Source: Variovorax sp. PBL-E5
GTDB lineage: Bacteria > Pseudomonadota > Gammaproteobacteria > Burkholderiales > Burkholderiaceae_C
Direction: 5' to 3'
NCBI RefSeq assembly: GCF_901827185.1
Contig: NZ_LR594671.1
Location: 3,224,001 to 3,288,000 of the forward strand
DNA length: 64,000 nucleotides
Positions within the stretch are counted from its first letter, which is position 1, and each line of letters opens with the position of its first letter. The position numbers were made by a program, and so were the translations under genes. The notes under the pieces were generated by a model. That model was not told the DNA's origin. It was given only the letters and a program-made list of their open reading frames with translations, and ran no database searches. Shown here piece by piece: positions 16,770 through 27,221 of the stretch.

Positions 16770-18275
16770 TCACTCGAAGCGGATCCCCTGCGCCAGCGGC
16801 AGCCGGCTCGAGAAGTTGAGGGTGTTGGTGCTGCGCCGCATGTACTGCTTCCAGGCGTCGGAGCCGCTCTCGCGATCGCCGCCGGTGTCCTTCTCGCCGC
16901 CGAAGGCGCCGCCGATCTCGGCACCGCTCGGACCGATGTTGACGTTGGCCATGCCGCAATCGGAACCCGCCGCCGAGAGAAAGCGCTCGACCTCGCGCAG
17001 GTCGTTCGAGAAGATGCACGACGACAGCCCCTGGGGCACGTCGTTGTGCAGCGCGATGGCCTCGTCGAAGGCGTCGTAGGCCAGCACGTAGAGCAGCGGC
17101 GCGAAGGTTTCGCGGCGCACCACCGCGGTCTGCGCCGGCATCTCGACGATCGCGGGCCGCACGTAGAACGCCTGCGCGAAGCGTTCGGCATGGACACGCT
17201 CCCCGCCGGTGACGACGCGGCCGCCCTGCGCCATGGCGTCTTCGAGCGCGCGCTGCATCGCCTCCCAGGCCGCCTGGTCGATCAGTGGTCCGACGAGCGT
17301 GCCGGGCTCCAGCGGATGGCCGATGCGCAGGCTGTCGTAGGCCGGCACCAGCTTCGACAGCAGCCGCTCCCTGACGGTGCGATGGACGATGAGCCGGCGC
17401 AGCGAGGTGCAGCGCTGGCCTGCGGTGCCGACCGCGCTGAACAGGATCGCGCGCAGCGCCAGGTCGAGGTCGGCTTCGGGCGTCACGATCATCGCGTTGT
17501 TGCCGCCGAGCTCGAGGATGCGGCGGCCGAAGCGCGCCGCGACCCGCGGACCGACCGCGCGTCCCATGCGCGTGGAGCCGGTTGCCGAGACCAGCGGAAT
17601 GTCGGTGCTGTCGACCAGCGCCTCGGCCTGTGCGGCACCGCCGATCACGATCTGGGCCAGGCCCGCGGGCGCCCGCTCGCCGAAGCGCGCGATGGCCCGC
17701 TCCAGCGCCCTGAAAGTTGCCAGGCCCGACAGCGGCGCCTTCTCCGACGGCTTGAAGAGCACCGGATCGCCGCACACCAGCGCGAGGGCCGTGTTCCATG
17801 CGAACACCGCGCTCGGGAAATTGAAGGCCGTGATGACGGCGACGGGCCCGAGCGGGTGGTACTGCTCCATGATCCGGTGCCCGGGCCGTTCCGACACGAT
17901 GGTCCGGCCGTAGAGCTGGCGCGACAGGCCGAGCGCGAAGTCGCAGATGTCCACGCCTTCCTGCACTTCACCGAGGCCCTCCTCGGCAATCTTGCCGACC
18001 TCGATCGAGACGACCCGGCCGATGTCGGCCTTGGCGCTGCGCAGTTCGTCGCCCCAGAGCCGGACCAGTTCGCCGCGCACCGGCGCCGGCACGTCGCGCC
18101 ATCGCGCGAACGCGGACTTCGCGCGGGCGATCAGCGCCGGCATCCCGGCCAGCGGGGTCTCGTGCAGGCGCGCGAGTTCGGCACCGTCGATGGGCGAGCG
18201 CACGGGCAGCGTGCCGCCGGCCCGTTCCGCCGCGCCGATGCCGCAGCGTTCGAAGAGGGAGAGCGGATCGTTCAT
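16770..18275 (-). CDS. L-aminoadipate-semialdehyde (piperideine-6-carboxylate) dehydrogenase
   Basis: The 501-residue aldehyde dehydrogenase resembles the ALDH7A1/AmaB branch: SERPGHRIMEQYHPLGPVAV, NFPSAVFAWNTALALVCGDP, LELGGNNAMIV with the catalytic Glu, GTAGQRCTSLRRL with the nucleophilic Cys, and the diagnostic C-terminal NVNIGPSGAEIGGAFGGEK. That family oxidises alpha-aminoadipate semialdehyde, in equilibrium with piperideine-6-carboxylate, to alpha-aminoadipate with NAD(P)+. The start ATG 18275 overlaps the TGA of the lysine-dehydrogenase-like gene (ATGA), which supplies this substrate. The two together make a short lysine-degradation route. Confidence 0.88.
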   Translation of the reverse strand: MNDPLSLFERCGIGAAERAGGTLPVRSPIDGAELARLHETPLAGMPALIARAKSAFARWRDVPAPVRGELVRLWGDELRSAKADIGRVVSIEVGKIAEEGLGEVQEGVDICDFALGLSRQLYGRTIVSERPGHRIMEQYHPLGPVAVITAFNFPSAVFAWNTALALVCGDPVLFKPSEKAPLSGLATFRALERAIARFGERAPAGLAQIVIGGAAQAEALVDSTDIPLVSATGSTRMGRAVGPRVAARFGRRILELGGNNAMIVTPEADLDLALRAILFSAVGTAGQRCTSLRRLIVHRTVRERLLSKLVPAYDSLRIGHPLEPGTLVGPLIDQAAWEAMQRALEDAMAQGGRVVTGGERVHAERFAQAFYVRPAIVEMPAQTAVVRRETFAPLLYVLAYDAFDEAIALHNDVPQGLSSCIFSNDLREVERFLSAAGSDCGMANVNIGPSGAEIGGAFGGEKDTGGDRESGSDAWKQYMRRSTNTLNFSSRLPLAQGIRFE

Positions 18276-19471
18276 GGCTGTGGCTCCTTGCGGGTCCTGC
18301 GTCGCAGCGACGGCGGCCAGGTATGCGCGGGCGCCGGGCCGCGATGCAGCTCGGCCGGCCATGCTGCAGCCGCAGGCGTGTCGCCGAGTGCCGCATAGCA
18401 GCTGCCGACGCGGGTGGCCAGGAAGGCGTCCAGCGGCACCTGCTCCTGGCCGACGAAACCGCGCGCCGGCAGGTGGCCGTTGCGCAGCAGCTCGACCACG
18501 CCGACCACGCCCGCCGCCGTCGCCAGTTCGATCGCCGTGCGCTCGACGCCGCGCAAGCGGCCGCCGGCGATGCGGGCTACACGGCTCTCCTGCTCGAAGC
18601 GGCCGGCGCGCAGCCCGCACGCCGATGCGAACACGATGACCCTGTCCTCGCGGCTGTGCGGCACCGCATGCTCCAGCACCTGCCGCAGCAGGTCGCGCCG
18701 TTCGACCAGGCGCAGGTCGTGCAGGAGAAAGTCCATCGCATCGCGGTGGCCCGGATAGCGGATCGTCTTGTAGTCGAGGTTGCGCACGCGGCCCGCCAGC
18801 GTCTCGCACAGCGTGCCCAGGCCGCCCGAGGTGTTGAAGGCTTCGAAGGTCTCGCCGTCGAGCACGAAACTCTCATGACCCTCCAGCGGCTGCACCGACA
18901 CCTGCCGGCCCTGCACGATGGCCGCGCATGGATGGCAGTACTCGTTGATGACGCCGTCGATGCTCCAGGTGAAGTTGTAGCGCAGCCGCCCGGTCGCATG
19001 GCGCGACAGCGCGCCGACGCGCAGCCGCAGGTCGTGCAAGGTGTCGAAGCGGCCGGCCAGGTGGGCGCCCAGCATCCCGATCACGCCCGGCGCCAGCCCG
19101 CTCTGCGGCATCATCACACTGCGCGCGCCCTCGGCCAGAAGACGGATCGCGGCGGTGGCCGCCACGTCTTCCGTCAGATCGAAGTAATGCACGTTGCATG
19201 CGCGCGCCGCGGCGGCGACGCGCGCCGCAAGATGGAAAGGCAGCGCGTTGATCACCACGTCGTGGCCGGCCAGCGCCGCGGCCAGCGCCGCGTCGTCGCC
19301 GACGTCGAGAACGATGCGCTCGACCAGACGGTCGTCCGGCACCGGCACCGGATGCGCGCGATCGGCGAGCGTGACCGCAAGCCGGTGGTATTCCGCCACC
19401 ATGTCGGCCACCGTGCTGCCCACCTTGCCGGCACCCAGCACGAGGACTTTGCGAAGGGGGATCGGGCTCAT
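18272..19471 (-). CDS. Lysine 6-dehydrogenase-like protein (saccharopine dehydrogenase family)
   Basis: The 399-residue protein has an N-terminal Rossmann fold (RKVLVLGAGKVGSTVADMVA) and a saccharopine-dehydrogenase-type C-terminal domain. The block FEAFNTSGGLGTLCETLAG and then LDYKTIRYPGHRDAMDFLL closely follow the pattern I recall for bacterial L-lysine 6-dehydrogenase, which oxidises the epsilon-amino group of lysine to give the semialdehyde/piperideine-6-carboxylate. A true saccharopine dehydrogenase is the alternative, but no lysine-ketoglutarate reductase is next to it. ATG 19471 has AGGAG upstream. It forms a two-gene operon with the aminoadipate-semialdehyde dehydrogenase. Confidence 0.75.
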   Translation of the reverse strand: MSPIPLRKVLVLGAGKVGSTVADMVAEYHRLAVTLADRAHPVPVPDDRLVERIVLDVGDDAALAAALAGHDVVINALPFHLAARVAAAARACNVHYFDLTEDVAATAAIRLLAEGARSVMMPQSGLAPGVIGMLGAHLAGRFDTLHDLRLRVGALSRHATGRLRYNFTWSIDGVINEYCHPCAAIVQGRQVSVQPLEGHESFVLDGETFEAFNTSGGLGTLCETLAGRVRNLDYKTIRYPGHRDAMDFLLHDLRLVERRDLLRQVLEHAVPHSREDRVIVFASACGLRAGRFEQESRVARIAGGRLRGVERTAIELATAAGVVGVVELLRNGHLPARGFVGQEQVPLDAFLATRVGSCYAALGDTPAAAAWPAELHRGPAPAHTWPPSLRRRTRKEPQP

Positions 19472-19627
19472 GACGAACTCCTGTTCAACCAGAAGGAACT
19501 GTAGGAGCGAGGGCTGGCAGCGGGAAGCCGCCATTGCGTCGCAAGGGCCGGCGATTCGGCCGTAACGACGGCGCGAACGATCGAATCGTCAGGACTTCGG
19601 TCCACAATGGACCGCATGGAGACACGT

Positions 19628-20470: not shown

Positions 20471-21514
20471 CTAGGCCGCAAGTGCGCGCGACGAGCCGCG
20501 AATCACCAGCTCACCCGGCAGCAGCAACTGACGCGGCGCCGTCTCCAGCCCCTTGAGCCGCTCGATCAGGCAGACCGCTGCGGTGCGGCCGATCGCATCG
20601 GTGGGCTGCGAGATGACGCTCAGGCCGGGCCCGATCAGCGATGTCCATTCGGGATCGTCGAAGCCGACGAAACCCAGCTCCTCGCCGAAGCGCCAGCCGA
20701 GCTTCGCCATCGCCGCCGCGACGCGCAGCGTGACGACCGCATTGCCGGCGATCACCGCCGCGCGCCGCCCGCGCTTCGCGCGCTGGCGCAAGGCGCGCAG
20801 CGCCGCTTCGAGCGCATCGGCGTCGCCTTCCGTGCTTTCGAATACCTGCCCGGCCACGCGCGGCGCGTCCGACGCATGCGCCTCCATGCAGCCGCCGAAG
20901 GCCGCGGTGCGTTCGCGCCGCGAGCTCACGCCCTTCTGCGGCTCGGTGATGTACAGCAGCTCGCACCATCCGCCTTCGACGAGGTGGCCGCAGGCGGTCT
21001 TCATCGCGGCCGCATTGTCGAGCGACACGAAATCGGTGTGCATGCCGGCATGGCGCCGATCCACCAGCACCGCGGGCCGGCCATGCAGCGCATCGGCATC
21101 GACCAGGCCGGCGCCGCGGCCCAGCGTGTTGAGGATGAAGCCGTCGACCTGGTAGCCCGCCAGCGCATCGATCGCCTCGCGCTCGCGGTCGATGTCGTTG
21201 CCGAGGTTGAACAGCATCACGAGGTAGCCCGCATCCTGGCAGGCCTTCTCGGCGCCGCGCAGCACCGCGACCGAATAGGGATTGGTGATGTCGGCGACGA
21301 TGAGGCCGATCAGCCGCGAGCGGCCATGGCTCAGCGCCTGCGCCATCAGGCTCGGCGTGTAGGCGAGCTGGGTGACGGCGACTTCGACGCGCGCCGCGAT
21401 GTCGGGGCTCAGCAGGCGCTCGCGGTGATTCAGGAATCGGGAAACGGTGGCCTTGGACACCCCTGCCGCTTTCGCGACATCCGCGATCGTTGCTCGTGGC
21501 GGCCTCGCCTTCAC
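20471..21514 (-). CDS. ptxS: LacI-family regulator, PtxS-like
   Basis: The 347-residue protein has a LacI HTH and hinge (ATIADVAKAAGVSKATVSRF; residues about 8-27) and a periplasmic-binding-protein-like sensor (LIGLIVADITNPYSVAVLRG). The sequence pattern is like Pseudomonas PtxS, the repressor of 2-ketogluconate use. It is the last gene of a run kguE-kguK-kguD-ptxS and a perfect TGAAACCGGTTTCA, the site established for PtxS, lies upstream of the first gene of the run at 27184-27197. It starts with GTG 21514, overlapping the stop of kguD (GTGA). Expected effector is 2-ketogluconate; that is inference from the family. Confidence 0.82.
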   Translation of the reverse strand: MKARPPRATIADVAKAAGVSKATVSRFLNHRERLLSPDIAARVEVAVTQLAYTPSLMAQALSHGRSRLIGLIVADITNPYSVAVLRGAEKACQDAGYLVMLFNLGNDIDREREAIDALAGYQVDGFILNTLGRGAGLVDADALHGRPAVLVDRRHAGMHTDFVSLDNAAAMKTACGHLVEGGWCELLYITEPQKGVSSRRERTAAFGGCMEAHASDAPRVAGQVFESTEGDADALEAALRALRQRAKRGRRAAVIAGNAVVTLRVAAAMAKLGWRFGEELGFVGFDDPEWTSLIGPGLSVISQPTDAIGRTAAVCLIERLKGLETAPRQLLLPGELVIRGSSRALAA

Positions 21515-22497
21515 GCCGCAGCCGTATCGAAAACCGCTGCCGGCCGCTCGCCCGCCAGCGCCTGCAACAGGCAGGTGGTCGCCAGCTCGGCCATCGCGTG
21601 GCGCGTCTCGTGCGTGGCCGAGCCGATGTGGGGCAGCGGCGTCACGCGCGGGTGGGTGCGCAGCGGCGAGGCCTTGGGCAAGGGCTCGGTGGCGAACACG
21701 TCGAGCCCCGCGGCGCGCAGCGTGCCTTGGTCGAGCGCGGCGAGCAGCGCGTCTTCCTGCACGGTCGCGCCGCGCCCGCCGTTGATGAAGATCGCGCCCG
21801 GCTTCATCGCGCCGAACACGCGCGCATCGATCATGCCGCGCGTGCTGTCCGACAGCGGCAGCATCGCGACCACGATGTCGGCACGCGCCAGCAGATCGTC
21901 CAGCGGCGTATGGATGGCGCGGCCCTGCAGCTCGGGCGCCTGCGCCGCCAGGTCGACCGGATGGCGCGCGTGGTAAAGCACCGGCATGCCGAAGCCGAGC
22001 GCGGCGCGGCGCGCGATCGCCTGACCGATGCGGCCGAAGCCCAGCAGGCCGAGCGTCTTGCCGTGCACGTCGAAGCCGAACAGTTCGTCGCCGATGTTCT
22101 TGTCCCAGCGGCCTTCACGCACCAGGTTCGACAGCTCGACCACGCGGCGGCAGGTCGCCATCAGGATCGCGAACACCGTGTCGGCCACCGTCTCGTCGAG
22201 CACGCCGGGCGTGTGGCACAGCAGGATGCCGCGCGCATGCAGCTCGGACAGCGCGTAGTTGTCGACGCCGACCGAGACGCTGGCGATCGCCTCGAGCTTC
22301 GGCGCCCGGTCGAGCAGCGCGGCATCGACCGGATAGGCCGAACCGATCATGCCCTGGGCCGTGGGCAGCGCGGCCTCGAAGGCCTCGCGCTGCGCGGCGA
22401 TGCGCGGATTGGCCACCGTGACCTCGTGCACCGCCTGCAGGCGCGCCAGCTGGTCATCGGGCAGTTCGCGGAACACCAGCACCTTCTTTTTTTGCAT
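21511..22497 (-). CDS. kguD: D-isomer 2-hydroxyacid dehydrogenase, probable 2-ketogluconate(-6-P) reductase
   Basis: The 328-residue protein has the NAD(P)-binding motif LGLLGFGRIGQAIARRAALG and the catalytic residues of the D-2-hydroxyacid dehydrogenases: Arg in NGGRGATVQED, Glu in FATEPLPKAS and His in TPLPHIGSATHETR. The pattern fits glyoxylate/2-ketogluconate reductases. Next to kguK and kguE it is expected to reduce 6-phospho-2-ketogluconate to 6-phosphogluconate. ATG 22497 overlaps the upstream stop (TGATG); a GTG one codon earlier is also possible. A direct 2-ketogluconate reductase (TkrA/GhrB) role cannot be excluded. Confidence 0.82.
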   Translation of the reverse strand: MQKKKVLVFRELPDDQLARLQAVHEVTVANPRIAAQREAFEAALPTAQGMIGSAYPVDAALLDRAPKLEAIASVSVGVDNYALSELHARGILLCHTPGVLDETVADTVFAILMATCRRVVELSNLVREGRWDKNIGDELFGFDVHGKTLGLLGFGRIGQAIARRAALGFGMPVLYHARHPVDLAAQAPELQGRAIHTPLDDLLARADIVVAMLPLSDSTRGMIDARVFGAMKPGAIFINGGRGATVQEDALLAALDQGTLRAAGLDVFATEPLPKASPLRTHPRVTPLPHIGSATHETRHAMAELATTCLLQALAGERPAAVFDTAAA

Positions 22498-23447
22498 CAC
22501 AAGTTCGCCTCATTGAGTTGGGCCCGCGTCGGCAGGCCTTCGGTATCGCCAAGCACCTGCACGGCGCGCGCGCCGATCCAGGCGCCGCGCCGCACCGCAT
22601 CGGGCACCGGCCGGCCTTCGAGCAGCGCGCTGATCACGCCGGCCGCGAAGCCGTCGCCGGCGCCGACCGTGTCGATCACCTCTTTCACGGGGAAGCCGTC
22701 GACGCGCCCCGTGCCGGCCACGTCGCTGTCGTAGTAGGCGCCGTTGGCGCCGAGCTTGACCACCACCAGCTTCGCGCCGAGCGCGCGATAGAAATGCGCG
22801 ATGCCTTCGGGCGTCGGCTCGCCAGTGAGGAACACGCCCTCTTCCATGCCCGGCAGCACCCAGTCGGCGCGCGCGGCGAGGCCGTTGATCTCCTGCCGCA
22901 TGCGCTCGGGCGAGGACCAGAGCGTGGGCCGCAGGTTGGGATCGAAGGAGATCGTGCGGCCGGCCGCGCGCATCACCGCCATGCTGCGGATCGCGGCCTG
23001 CAGGCTGGTGTCGGAGATGGCCGGGAACACGCCGGTCGCATGCAGGTGCCGTGCCGAACGCAGCCAGGCCTCGTCGACATCGGCCGGGCCCATGTGGCTG
23101 GCGGCCGAACCCTTGCGGTGGTATTCGACCGGCGGATCGCTGCCGTCGGTCACGCGGCCCTTGAACTGGAAGCCCGTGCGCTGCGTCGCGTCGCTGACCA
23201 CGTGCGAGCAGTCGATGCCCTCGGCCTGCATCGCGGCCAGCAGTGCGCGGCCCATCGAGTCGGTGCCGAGGCGGCTGGCCCAGCCGACCTGGAGCCCGAG
23301 GCGCGCCAGGCCGATGGCGACATTGGTCTCGGCGCCGGCGGTGCGCTTGTGGAAGGCGGTCGCGTTCTCGATCGGTCCGGGGCGGTCGGCCACCAGCAGC
23401 AGCATAGCTTCGCCGAACAGCGCGACGTCGAAGGCAGGCTTCGTCAT
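22497..23447 (-). CDS. kguK: PfkB-family sugar kinase, probable 2-ketogluconate kinase
   Basis: The 316-residue ribokinase/PfkB-fold protein starts DVALFGEAMLLLVADRPGPI, has the sugar-binding GAETNVAIGLARLGLQVGW and ends with the PfkB signature DTVGAGDGFAAGV, where the Asp is the catalytic base. The pattern resembles both KdgK and KguK; the adjacent kguE-like, kguD-like and ptxS-like genes point to 2-ketogluconate kinase. ATG 23447 overlaps the stop of kguE (ATGA). It is full length. Confidence 0.82.
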   Translation of the reverse strand: MTKPAFDVALFGEAMLLLVADRPGPIENATAFHKRTAGAETNVAIGLARLGLQVGWASRLGTDSMGRALLAAMQAEGIDCSHVVSDATQRTGFQFKGRVTDGSDPPVEYHRKGSAASHMGPADVDEAWLRSARHLHATGVFPAISDTSLQAAIRSMAVMRAAGRTISFDPNLRPTLWSSPERMRQEINGLAARADWVLPGMEEGVFLTGEPTPEGIAHFYRALGAKLVVVKLGANGAYYDSDVAGTGRVDGFPVKEVIDTVGAGDGFAAGVISALLEGRPVPDAVRRGAWIGARAVQVLGDTEGLPTRAQLNEANL

Positions 23448-24190
23448 GACACAGCGCGCAGCGCGCGGATGTGCGCGACCTGGTCGCGCGTGACGGCGAG
23501 CAGGTCGTCGCCGATCAGCGGGTATTCGATCGCATGCGGCACGTCGGCCGGCAATGCGCGCAGCACCGCGCGCCACGGCGCGACCGAGTCGGCCAGCGGC
23601 ACCGCCACCCATTTCGCGGGCAGGCGCTGCACGCCCTTGCAATGCACGTAGCGCACGCGCGAGGCCAGTGCCGAGGCGGCCTGCAGCGGGCATTCGCCGA
23701 GCCAGTGCCAGTTGCCCATGTCGAAGGTCATGCCGAGGTCGAGCCCCGCGTGGTCGGCCGCCTTGAAGAAGGCCTGCAATGCAGGCAGCGAACCGGCCGA
23801 CACGGTCTGGTCGTTCTCGATCACGAGCTCGATGCGGGTCTCGTCCAGCTGCGCCTTCAGGCCCGCCAGCGCGCCGTGCGAGGACACGCGGAAATCGCCG
23901 ATCGCCGTCTTGAGCCGGCGCGCGCCGAGCGCGGTCGCGGCGGCGAGGCCGCGCGCGAGCGCGGCGCTGTCGAGCATGCCCCCTTCGGCCCACAGACCTT
24001 CGGGACTCGAATAGACCGAAGCCAGTCCGGCCAGCGCCGGCAGCTCCGACGACGGATCGCGCAGCAGCTCGCCGCGCACCTCGACGCCGTCGGCGCCGGC
24101 CGCCTTCGCGAGTTGCGCGCACCACAGCTGGCCGTGCCGGCCGACTTCGGCTGCGCCGTAGGACGAAAGCGAGATCAGTACCTGGAACAC
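23444..24190 (-). CDS. kguE: KguE-like sugar phosphate isomerase/epimerase (TIM barrel)
   Basis: The 248-residue protein starts with GTG 24190 and reads FQVLISLSSYGAAEVGRHGQ, the distinctive start I recall for Pseudomonas KguE, an AP-endonuclease-2-type TIM barrel. Likely metal ligands are in LVIENDQTVSAG (Glu), LGMTFDMGNWHWLGE (Asp, His), YVHCKGVQ (His) and HAIEYPL (Glu). KguE has no proven catalytic step in 2-ketogluconate use that I know of; an epimerase role is assumed. Only 1 bp separates it from the ABC ATPase gene upstream, which ties the transporter to the kgu genes. Confidence 0.82.
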   Translation of the reverse strand: MFQVLISLSSYGAAEVGRHGQLWCAQLAKAAGADGVEVRGELLRDPSSELPALAGLASVYSSPEGLWAEGGMLDSAALARGLAAATALGARRLKTAIGDFRVSSHGALAGLKAQLDETRIELVIENDQTVSAGSLPALQAFFKAADHAGLDLGMTFDMGNWHWLGECPLQAASALASRVRYVHCKGVQRLPAKWVAVPLADSVAPWRAVLRALPADVPHAIEYPLIGDDLLAVTRDQVAHIRALRAVS

Positions 24191-24191
24191 G

Positions 24192-24971
24192 TCAATGCGC
24201 TTGGTGAGAGGAGAGGATTTGCCCGAGGAACTGCTTGGTCTTCTCGTTCTTGGGATGAGCGAAGAACTCTTCCGGCGGCGCCTCTTCGACGATCCTTCCC
24301 TCGGCCATGAAGATCACGCGGTCGGCCACGCTGCGTGCGAAGCCCATCTCGTGCGTGACGCACAGCATCGTCATGCCGTCCTCGGCCAGGCCGATCATGG
24401 TGTCGAGCACTTCCTTGACCATCTCGGGATCGAGCGCCGAAGTGGGTTCGTCGAACAGCATGATCTTGGGCGTCATGCACAGCGCGCGCGCGATCGCCAC
24501 GCGCTGCTGCTGGCCGCCCGACAGCTGGCTCGGGTACTTGGCGGCCTGCTCGGGAATGCGCACGCGCGTCAGGTACTTCATGGCGATCGCTTCGGCCTCG
24601 GCCTTGTTCAGGCCGCGCGAACGCATCGGCGCCAGCGTGCAGTTCTGCAGGATGGTGAGGTGCGGGAACAGGTTGAACTGCTGGAACACCATGCCGACCT
24701 CGGCGCGCACGGCGTCGATGTTCCTGCCGCCGGCCGTGAGCTCGATGCCGTCGACCACGATGCGGCCCTTCTGCACCGTCTCGAGCCGGTTGATGCAGCG
24801 GATCAGCGTCGACTTGCCCGAGCCGGACGGCCCGCAGATCACGATGCGTTCGCCGCTCTTCACCGACAGGTCGATGCCGGTCAGCACCTGGAAGGTGCCG
24901 TACCACTTGTTCACCGCCTCCATCCGGATGATGGTGTCGGCGCCCGCCTGGGTCGTGACTGCGTCCGTCAT
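24192..24971 (-). CDS. Polar-amino-acid-type ABC transporter ATPase
   Basis: The 259-residue ATPase has Walker [10 protein letters not shown], the Q-loop [11 protein letters not shown], the signature [15 protein letters not shown] and Walker [15 protein letters not shown], followed by the H-loop [15 protein letters not shown]. The sequence is of the GlnQ/PAAT class, which normally energises uptake of polar amino acids. Its place directly before kguE and behind a PtxS-type operator suggests it energises import of a sugar acid such as 2-ketogluconate instead. It is 13 bp downstream of the binding-protein gene. Confidence 0.92.
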
Positions 24972-24984
24972 GGCTTCTCGCGTC

Positions 24985-25782
24985 CTACTGCAGCTTGGGC
25001 AGATCAGCGCCGAGCCACTTGTTGTAGAGCTTGTTGAGCTCGCCGTTGGCGGTGTTCTTCTGAACGAAGTCGTTCACGTTCTTGAGCAGGTCGTCCTGGC
25101 CCGGACGCATCGCGATCGCCATGGCCTGCTGCACCAGCGTGAACTTGTTTTCGAAGGTGTTGGCCGGCACGCGCTTGGCGATCTGCGCCGCCACGGTGAC
25201 CGAGCAGCCGATCGCATCGACCTGACCCGACATCAGCGCCTGCATGGCCGAGGCGTCGTCGTCGAAGCGGCGGATCTCGGTGCCTTCGGGCGCGGCCTTG
25301 GTCACGGCCACGTCCTGCGTGCTGGCGCGGGCCACGCCGACGCGCACGCCCTTCAGGTCGGCCGCGCTCTTGATCGCGCTGCCCTTCTTGCCATAGAGAA
25401 CGATGGTCGCGGCCGCATAGGGCGTCGAGAACTGCACCTGCTTGGCACGCTCGGGCGTGATGGCCAGCGAAGCCACCAGCAGGTCGACCTTGTTGGTCAG
25501 GAGGAAGGGAATGCGGTTCGGCCCGGTGACCGGCACGATGTTGGCCTTGACGCCCCAGTCCTTGGCCAGCAGCTTGGCGACGTCGGCGTCGTAGCCGTCG
25601 GGCTGGTTCTTGGCATCGGTGGTGCCGTAGGGCGGGAAGTCGACCAGCATGCCGATGGTGATCTCGCCTTTCTTCTTGATGTCGGCCACGCTCTGGGCCG
25701 AGGCGAAGGGTGCGAACGCCGTGAGCGCGGCGCCCAGGGCGATGGCTGCGAGGGCCGTGCGGCGGGCGATGGAATGGTTCAT
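24985..25782 (-). CDS. ABC transporter periplasmic binding protein (PAAT/SBP family 3)
   Basis: The 265-residue protein starts [20 protein letters not shown], a signal peptide ending ASA-QS near residue 30, with AAGGAG upstream of ATG 25782. The mature part is a family-3 solute-binding protein: [40 protein letters not shown] and [20 protein letters not shown]. In classical amino-acid binders an Arg and Asp hold the alpha-carboxylate and amine; here the region [19 protein letters not shown] keeps the Arg. The ligand is unknown; 2-ketogluconate or another sugar acid is suggested by the operon. Confidence 0.9.
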
Positions 25783-25838
25783 GTCGGAGTCTCCTTGATT
25801 TGAAGTCGGATGAGAAAAGAAAACGCAGTGCTCAGTGC

Positions 25839-26492
25839 TCAGCGCGCCAGGGCACGCGCGCGGCGACGCTCCATGTGCGCAGCCAGCAGCGACAGCGGCC
25901 AGCAGATCACGAAGTAGATCGCCGCCACCGTCGTGAAGACGTACAGCGGCTGGAAGGTCGCGTTGTTGATGATCTGCCCGGCGCGCGTGATCTCGGTGAA
26001 GCCGATGATGGCCGCCAGCGAAGTGCCCTTGATGATCTGCACCACGTAACCCACGGTCGGCGCGAGCGCGATCTTGAAGGCCTGCGGCAGCACCACGTCG
26101 CGCATGCGTGCGCTGTAGTTGAGGCTCAGCGCTTCCGCCGCTTCCCATTGGCCGCGCGGCACCGCCTCGATGCAGCCACGCCAGATCTCGCCGAGGAAGG
26201 CCGCGCTGTTGAGCACCAGCGCGACGCCGGCGGCAATCCACGGATTGATGTCGAAGCCGAGCACCGGCGCGCCGAAGAAGATCAGGAACAGTTGCAGCAG
26301 CAGCGGCGTGCCCTGGAAGATCTGGATGAAGCCGGTCGACAGCGTGCGCGCGGTCTTGCTGTCCGACGTGCGCGCCAGCGCGACCACGAGGCCCAGGATC
26401 GCACCGCCGACGAAGGCGATCAGCGACAGCGCCAGCGTCCACCTGGCCGCTTCGAGGATGAACAGGAATTCGGGAGTGCCGAAGGTACGCAT
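25839..26492 (-). CDS. PAAT-type ABC transporter permease
   Basis: The 217-residue inner-membrane permease has the EAA-loop region AAEALSLNYSARMRDVVLPQ followed by IALAPTVGYVVQIIKGTSLA, and about five hydrophobic helices. The FIQIFQGTPLLLQLFLIFFG segment is typical of GlnP/HisMQ-like permeases. It lies between the other permease (5-bp gap) and the binding-protein gene (56-bp gap) and belongs to the same operon. Confidence 0.92.
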   Translation of the reverse strand: MRTFGTPEFLFILEAARWTLALSLIAFVGGAILGLVVALARTSDSKTARTLSTGFIQIFQGTPLLLQLFLIFFGAPVLGFDINPWIAAGVALVLNSAAFLGEIWRGCIEAVPRGQWEAAEALSLNYSARMRDVVLPQAFKIALAPTVGYVVQIIKGTSLAAIIGFTEITRAGQIINNATFQPLYVFTTVAAIYFVICWPLSLLAAHMERRRARALAR

Positions 26493-26497
26493 GGTGT

Positions 26498-27169
26498 TCA
26501 GCGCCGGTCCGGATAGTTGAGCGTGCGCTGGTAGATCAGCTTGAACAGCGCCGAGAAGGCCAGCGCCAGCGCGAGGTAGATCGCGGCGACCACGATGTAG
26601 ATCTCGAAGCTGCGGAAGGTCTGCGATTGCAGGTTGGCCGCGACCGAGGTGAGGTCATCGGCCGAGATCACCGACACCACGGCCGAGCTCAGCATCAGCA
26701 AAATGAACTGGCTGGTGAGCGCCGGATAGATGGCCTTCAGCGCCGGCTTGATGATGACGAAGCGGAAGATCTCCCACGGCTTGAGGTTGAGCGCCCTGCC
26801 CGCCTCGATCTGGCCCTTGGGGATCGACTCGATGCCGGCGCGGATGATCTCGGTCGCGTAGGCGCCGAGGTTCACCACCATCGCAGTCAGCGCCGCGGTG
26901 TAGGGCGACCAGCGCAAGCCGATGGCCGGCAGCGCGAAGAAAAAGAAGAACAGCTGCACCAGGAAGGGCGTGTTGCGGATGACCTCGATGTACGCATTGA
27001 CGATGAAGCGCAGCCAGCCCGGCCCCGAGGTCTTGCCCCAGGCGCAGAAGATGGCGACCACCAGGCCCAGCAGCGTGGCGACGAGCGAGAGCTGGATGGT
27101 GATCCACGTGCCCTTGAGCAACAGCGGCCAGGCGGCGAAGACGGCTTCGAACTGGAATTGGTAGTGCAC
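26498..27169 (-). CDS. PAAT-type ABC transporter permease, first gene of the ptxS operon
   Basis: The 223-residue permease reads MHYQFQFEAVFAAWPLLLKG and has the family blocks YIEVIRNTPFLVQLFFFFFA and EAGRALNLKPWEIFRFVIIK (EAA loop). The start is GTG 27169. There is no visible Shine-Dalgarno sequence; instead TATACT (a good -10 hexamer on this strand, 27177-27182) lies just 8 bases upstream of the start codon, so either the mRNA is leaderless or the real promoter lies further up. A perfect PtxS-type operator sits immediately beyond at 27184-27197. Confidence 0.9.
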   Translation of the reverse strand: MHYQFQFEAVFAAWPLLLKGTWITIQLSLVATLLGLVVAIFCAWGKTSGPGWLRFIVNAYIEVIRNTPFLVQLFFFFFALPAIGLRWSPYTAALTAMVVNLGAYATEIIRAGIESIPKGQIEAGRALNLKPWEIFRFVIIKPALKAIYPALTSQFILLMLSSAVVSVISADDLTSVAANLQSQTFRSFEIYIVVAAIYLALALAFSALFKLIYQRTLNYPDRR

Positions 27170-27176
27170 GGCGGCA

Positions 27177-27182
27177 AGTATA
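27177..27182 (-). promoter_or_regulatory. Candidate -10 box of the ABC-kgu-ptxS operon
   Basis: TATACT on the minus strand matches five of six consensus bases. No convincing -35 box is seen at 16-18 bp, which is common for promoters needing an activator or tolerating a weak -35. If used, transcription would start at or next to the GTG start codon. Confidence 0.4.
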
Positions 27183-27183
27183 T

Positions 27184-27197
27184 TGAAACCGGTTTCA
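27184..27197. promoter_or_regulatory. PtxS-type operator TGAAACCGGTTTCA
   Basis: The 14-bp sequence is a perfect palindrome and equals the operator reported for PtxS of Pseudomonas. It lies 1 bp upstream of the candidate -10 box of the eight-gene operon whose last gene encodes a PtxS-like LacI regulator. A bound repressor would occlude the spacer of the promoter. It could also affect the divergent gene at 27248, 50 bp away. Confidence 0.85.
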
Positions 27198-27205
27198 GCG
27201 CCACA

Positions 27206-27221
27206 CTAGGGATTCCCCTAG
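27206..27221. promoter_or_regulatory. Second inverted repeat in the 27170-27247 spacer
   Basis: CTAGGG-ATTC-CCCTAG has perfect 6-bp arms around a 4-bp centre. It lies between the PtxS-type operator and the start of the CorA-like gene, so it could serve either direction. The binding protein is unknown. Confidence 0.4.

Follow-up and report, generated by a model that had tools for sequence, protein, structure and literature searches.

The stretch analysed here, 64,000 nucleotides of the Variovorax sp. PBL-E5 genome (contig NZ_LR594671.1, positions 3,224,001 to 3,288,000; hereafter the window), carries eight genes on the minus strand that lie head to tail from 27169 to 20471 and join an ATP-binding cassette (ABC) importer to homologues of the kgu (2-ketogluconate, 2KG) genes and ptxS. 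Gene families were assigned with Pfam and NCBIfam profiles. The set starts with permease 1 (26498..27169, GTG start) and permease 2 (25839..26492), both matching PF00528 and scoring above the cut-off for HEQRo_perm_3TM, followed by a solute-binding protein (24985..25782; SBP_bac_3, PF00497), in which R112 is retained and S194 replaces the ammonium-binding Asp, and a GlnQ-like ABC ATPase (24192..24971; ABC_tran). Next come kguE (23444..24190), coding for a TIM-barrel, epimerase-like relative of PA2260 whose AP_endonuc_2-like match falls under the Pfam cut-off; kguK (22497..23447), a PfkB family kinase assigned as 2-ketogluconokinase; kguD (21511..22500), a D-2-hydroxyacid dehydrogenase (2-Hacid_dh) assigned as 2-ketogluconate-6-phosphate reductase; and ptxS (20471..21514), a LacI-family repressor with LacI and Peripla_BP matches. 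A single base pair separates the ATPase stop codon from the GTG start of kguE, and the junctions that follow are ATGA (kguE/kguK), TGATG (kguK/kguD) and GTGA (kguD/ptxS). This one-strand order and its junctions had been described in the original prediction, and all are present. At E <= 0.1, KguE matches a single Protein Data Bank (PDB) entry, 1yx1 ('hypothetical protein PA2260'), and the top match of KguD is 9m0t ('Probable 2-ketogluconate reductase'), both in agreement with the kgu assignment.

By Pfam and NCBIfam, the four importer genes belong to the polar-amino-acid (PAAT) class, a family that we take to be TC 3.A.1.3, with two BPD_transp_1 permeases of the HEQRo type, SBP_bac_3 and a GlnQ-like ATPase; equivalog models such as GlnQ score under their own cut-offs for these proteins. 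The importer shares these components, the fold and the carboxylate-binding Arg with GlnHPQ, ArtPIQMJ and HisJQMP, but differs from them in the Ser at the ammonium-binding position, in the invariant Arg90 and Arg152 and in its linkage to kgu genes. The locus has homologues of kguE, kguK, kguD and ptxS in common with the Pseudomonas operon (kguE-kguK-kguT-kguD with ptxS), whereas the major facilitator superfamily (MFS) carrier KguT is missing from the window and the four ABC importer genes lead the operon. The PtxS of the window is 38-42% identical to PtxS of three KguT-type loci. The original prediction had placed the PAAT system in the position of KguT; KguT is indeed absent, yet the importer genes sit upstream of kguE, whereas kguT at loci L086, L087 and L089 is placed between kguK and kguD. 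A KguT encoded elsewhere in the same genome was considered and rejected, the four matches there reaching 23-30% identity only (best 30%). Beside the operon, on the minus strand at 16770-19534, lie frames that by eye resemble a saccharopine dehydrogenase and an aldehyde dehydrogenase.

The palindrome TGAAACCGGTTTCA (27184..27197, minus strand), a putative PtxS operator, lies ahead of the importer, and the perfect match claimed for it proved exact. The same 14-bp word has been reported for P. aeruginosa PtxS, near the -10 region (PMC5902321). It is the sole site in the window when up to 3 mismatches are allowed (shuffled sequences give an expectation of 0.90 at this setting) and the sole site in the 7.1 Mb genome at <=1 mismatch. 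Immediately behind it is a -10-like TATACT (27177..27182, minus strand) of an inferred promoter, and a TA-rich stretch resembling it follows the operator in many, not all, of the relatives compared. The locus thus has, in sequence, a LacI regulator together with TGAAACCGGTTTCA at a putative promoter, as in a PtxS regulon. The GTG start of permease 1 at 27169 is only 14 nt past the operator, and with TATACT directly behind the operator the permease 1 transcript may therefore be leaderless; the distance is 15-17 nt in L057 and L080 and longer in the other relatives compared. Across the family, 41 of 399 genomes contain the exact operator word and 5 of 399 a reversed control word; on this and on the uniqueness of the site in the genome, a chance occurrence was rejected. 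Thirty-five of these 41 genomes have the word at an importer set and four have it elsewhere; the other two (G318, G253), outside this check, share their genus with three of the 35. For five sites in four genomes (L219-L223), no kgu gene was found within 7 kb. Upstream of the operator is a second palindrome, TAGGGGAATCCCTA (27207..27220, minus strand), possibly an activator site; in 23 of 39 relatives a GGG-N3..5-CCC pattern is present in the 60 nt ahead of the operator, and TAGGGNAATCCCTA has just two copies in the genome at <=1 mismatch.

The original prediction had proposed a search for PAAT transporters beside kguE-kguK-kguD-ptxS in other genomes, and the pairing recurred widely. KguE was found in 46/399 genomes of the window's family and in 9/399 of its order (6 new), and a KguE-alignment search found it in 2/369 genomes of the class and 24/398 of the phylum (18 new together). 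All 70 kguE loci were examined, with flanks of about 9 kb (family, order) or about 6 kb (rest) where the contig allowed; KguT was sought by using the KguT-type protein from L086 as a tblastn query (E <= 1e-8), and for the window by the genome-wide KguT match. A PAAT importer stands beside kguE at 44 of the 70 loci, KguT at 19 (L086, L087, L089, L183-L198), neither at seven and both at none. The 44 PAAT loci comprise 40 intact type-1 sets (the window and 39 others), all sharing the window's gene order, two type-1 sets split between contigs, and two sets of a different type. In the split sets (L054/L224, L071/L225) the ATPase gene stands alone before a contig end and the remainder is found at a second contig end in that genome, on a different contig. 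Type 2, with the order binding protein-permease-permease-ATPase, adjoins kgu genes in two families (L059, L085).

Each of the 40 intact type-1 sets has the operator within 400 nt before permease 1, as an exact copy in 30 and with one mismatch in 10. ptxS was found within the stretch at 37 of these 40, on the opposite strand in L083, and was not found within it at L048, L050 (which stops at a contig end) and L063. Of the 20 genera with kguE in the family sample, 18 have type 1, which also occurs at L084 of another family. A further sample, overlapping the first, consisted of the best 80 of 420 named loci with the binding protein and came mostly from Variovorax and also from Acidovorax, Xenophilus and Simplicispira. 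Here kguE lies no more than 2.5 kb beyond the binding-protein gene in 77 of the 80; of the remaining three, L110 and L121 break off shortly after the gene for the binding protein or the ATPase, and L168 retains kguK and kguD without kguE. Permease 1 has the exact operator ahead of it in 78 of the same 80, the exceptions being L140, without an exact copy there, and L103, which starts at the binding-protein gene. In L168 and in L215-L218, the latter located through the operator search, the importer occurs together with kguK and kguD and no kguE was found. Since the importer stays with kguK-kguD in these five loci, it is the importer and not kguE that anchors the gene set.

The seven loci with neither carrier are L073, L075, L076 and L078 (one genus, g53), L088, L199 and L200. 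At the four loci of g53, where no PAAT or KguT was found, the order is ptxS-kguE-kguK-kguD with one-mismatch operators; downstream of kguD, L073 has what by eye is a TRAP-type binding protein, and L078 has a similar frame. kguE adjoins kguD at L199 and L200, with no kguK or KguT found there, and at L200 an adjacent three-gene set resembles gluconate 2-dehydrogenase from the gene calls only.

The pocket of the binding protein was compared by aligning 47 type-1 proteins, both type-2 proteins, seven amino-acid-binding proteins of E. coli K-12 and paralogues from the window's genome. In classical members, the Arg holds the alpha-carboxylate of the ligand and the Asp its alpha-ammonium group. Arg112 of the window aligns with Arg77 of LAO/HisJ and Arg75 of GlnH and is kept in 47/47 type-1 and 7/7 E. 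coli proteins. Ser194 aligns with Asp161 of LAO/HisJ and Asp157 of GlnH; the residue is Ser in 47/47 type-1 proteins, Pro in both type-2 proteins and Asp in all seven E. coli proteins, so the ammonium-holding residue of an amino-acid importer is absent from all 47. Arg90 and Arg152 are invariant across both kgu types. With the Arg kept and the Asp replaced, the pocket would suit, though not prove, a carboxylate ligand lacking an alpha-amino group. A structure model, built from close homologues only, yielded the fold (best of five models pLDDT 86.0, pTM 0.78; the other four pLDDT 84.6-72.4). Structures of LAO D161A and other mutants were among the structure matches listed.

Relatives of the importer were also found beyond the kgu loci. 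A paralogous PAAT set in the window's genome (L213, G000:C1:783000-793000), its binding protein 40% identical, is flanked on one side by a short-chain dehydrogenase/reductase (SDR) and a 2,4-didehydro-3-deoxy-L-rhamnonate-hydrolase-like (FAH) protein (467 bits, cut-off 500), and on the other by a member of the enolase superfamily similar to talarate/galactarate dehydratase (287.5 bits, against a cut-off of 500). The cluster also includes an FCD-type GntR regulator, and this setting suggests that L213 may encode another acid-sugar importer. We also read eight plasmid regions, picked mainly for being annotated, out of 518 and 404 records matching the two types. In three alphaproteobacterial regions (L234-L236; Azospirillum, Neorhizobium, Sinorhizobium; 56-59% by alignment), the importer neighbours genes for a LacI regulator and for a 2-hydroxyacid dehydrogenase that shares 37-39% identity with KguD. 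On a Variovorax plasmid (L231) the importer is accompanied by a protein resembling KguD (74%) and by a dihydroxy-acid dehydratase, L233 has it beside GMC oxidoreductases, and the type-2 relative L238 lies beside LacI and SDR genes, while gluconokinase, idnO and idnD are encoded on the opposite strand. For L237 and L232 a sugar-acid partner was not evident, and L232 has no annotated permease next to the binding protein. Asp is absent from the ammonium position in all eight binding proteins. In a tree, type 1 (95/96) and type 2 (100/100) each form a clade, and both are separated from the E. coli proteins; the fork that unites the two types with the paralogue L091 is open (85/88), and with several long branches and weak deep forks the tree does not decide between one and two recruitments.

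From the gene content and order, the unique and conserved operator, the alternation with KguT and the pocket substitutions, all established here, we infer a substrate, a direction of transport and a mode of induction. The locus is probably a 2KG utilisation operon in which a PtxS-controlled PAAT-class ABC importer of 2KG, or of a near ketoaldonate, replaces KguT. This reading largely bears out the original prediction, which had proposed import of 2KG or a related sugar acid, substrates that are unusual for the PAAT family. Glucose and gluconate would be oxidised to 2KG in the periplasm, or 2KG would be encountered in soil; the binding protein would clamp it through its carboxylate (Arg112) and sugar hydroxyls, and the two permeases and the ATPase would import it. 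KguK would then phosphorylate 2KG and KguD would reduce the product to 6-phosphogluconate. Free 2KG would release PtxS from the operator beside the promoter, and importer and enzymes, sharing that operator, would thereby be induced together. Formation of 2KG in the periplasm could be within reach of this strain, since its genome has a membrane pyrroloquinoline quinone (PQQ)-dehydrogenase (TIGR03074; 1071.7 bits against a cut-off of 832.65) as well as two genes of the PF13618 family (gluconate 2-dehydrogenase subunit 3), both of which have a GMC protein encoded nearby. Elsewhere in the same genome (L211, 3481-6887), a KguD-like dehydrogenase (40%) adjoins a GMC oxidoreductase and a PF13618 gene.

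Several observations weigh against this assignment and bear on other explanations. The GMC and PF13618 families are not gluconate-specific, and the GMC protein of L210 had no gluconate-dehydrogenase match in NCBIfam. Among twelve paralogous matches in the window's genome, nine are comparable, with the Asp present in three and absent in six, so that its loss does not name a ligand. The solved structures listed as nearest are either cyclohexadienyl dehydratases or proteins with amino acids, opines or deoxyfructosyl-amino acids as ligands, and no title among them names a sugar acid. These structures, like the family label and the fold, would fit import of an amino acid or an amino sugar acid that is then deaminated into the kgu pathway; D-glucosaminate, for example, is a sugar acid and an alpha-amino acid at once. 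We nevertheless consider this very unlikely given the Ser and Pro at the ammonium position in the two types, and no transaminase or deaminase is among the eight operon genes of the window. A carrier elsewhere in the genome, with the importer genes sharing no more than an operon with kgu, would accommodate the distant MFS relatives of KguT and the single genus (4/46 family loci) whose kgu genes have neither a PAAT importer nor KguT nearby. It is hard to reconcile with the distribution of the type-1 importer, which adjoins kgu genes in 18 of the family's genera and at one locus of another family, is retained in loci without kguE and alternates with KguT, and we give this explanation almost no credence.

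The neighbourhoods of the relatives raise a further alternative, that another sugar acid (an aldonate such as gluconate, 2-keto-L-gulonate or 5-ketogluconate) is imported and converted into the kgu route, 2KG being a side substrate. Ligands such as aldonates are possible because the L231 set adjoins a dihydroxy-acid dehydratase, and the GMC oxidoreductases of L233, the gluconokinase, idnO and idnD genes of L238 and the L213 cluster point the same way. The constant partners at type-1 kgu loci, however, are kguK and kguD, whose products act on 2KG and 2KG phosphate, and KguT was not found with the importer; another sugar acid as the main substrate therefore appears unlikely, and import of 2KG or a near ketoaldonate is preferred. 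Binding proteins of this fold can have ligands larger than plain amino acids, as do SocA (5l9o/5lom), NocT and OccJ, which bind sugar-amino-acid conjugates and opines. Their ligands still contain an amino acid, whereas the ligand predicted for the window's importer has no alpha-amino group.

Among the matches listed in the open PMC literature, no title or abstract start dealt with a PAAT importer accompanying kgu genes, in a search that did not extend to RegPrecise, TCDB or paper supplements, where such a prediction may exist; a term search of the main text of PMC4052901 gave no mention of ketogluconate or kgu. The analysis adds to the original prediction that the PAAT importer alternates with KguT, that there is a second PAAT type, that the ammonium-binding Asp has been lost and that some relatives have sugar-acid genes as neighbours. 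At even odds, in our judgement, a PAAT branch in beta- and alphaproteobacteria comprises importers of ketoaldonates and other acid sugars that arose through loss of this Asp and were recruited into kgu operons at least twice in place of KguT, with many genes annotated as amino-acid importers belonging to it.

Where the binding protein of relatives is named, it is mostly a 'polar amino acid transport system substrate-binding protein' or a 'transporter substrate-binding domain-containing protein' (best 120 of 2729). If import of 2KG is confirmed, a substrate would be assigned to an importer set labelled in databases as amino-acid class, and the set would illustrate how a pocket for amino acids was adapted to sugar acids. 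Corrections to the metabolic models for Variovorax, Acidovorax and their relatives would follow, with 2-ketogluconate uptake driven by ATP in these organisms in contrast to the MFS carrier of other bacteria.

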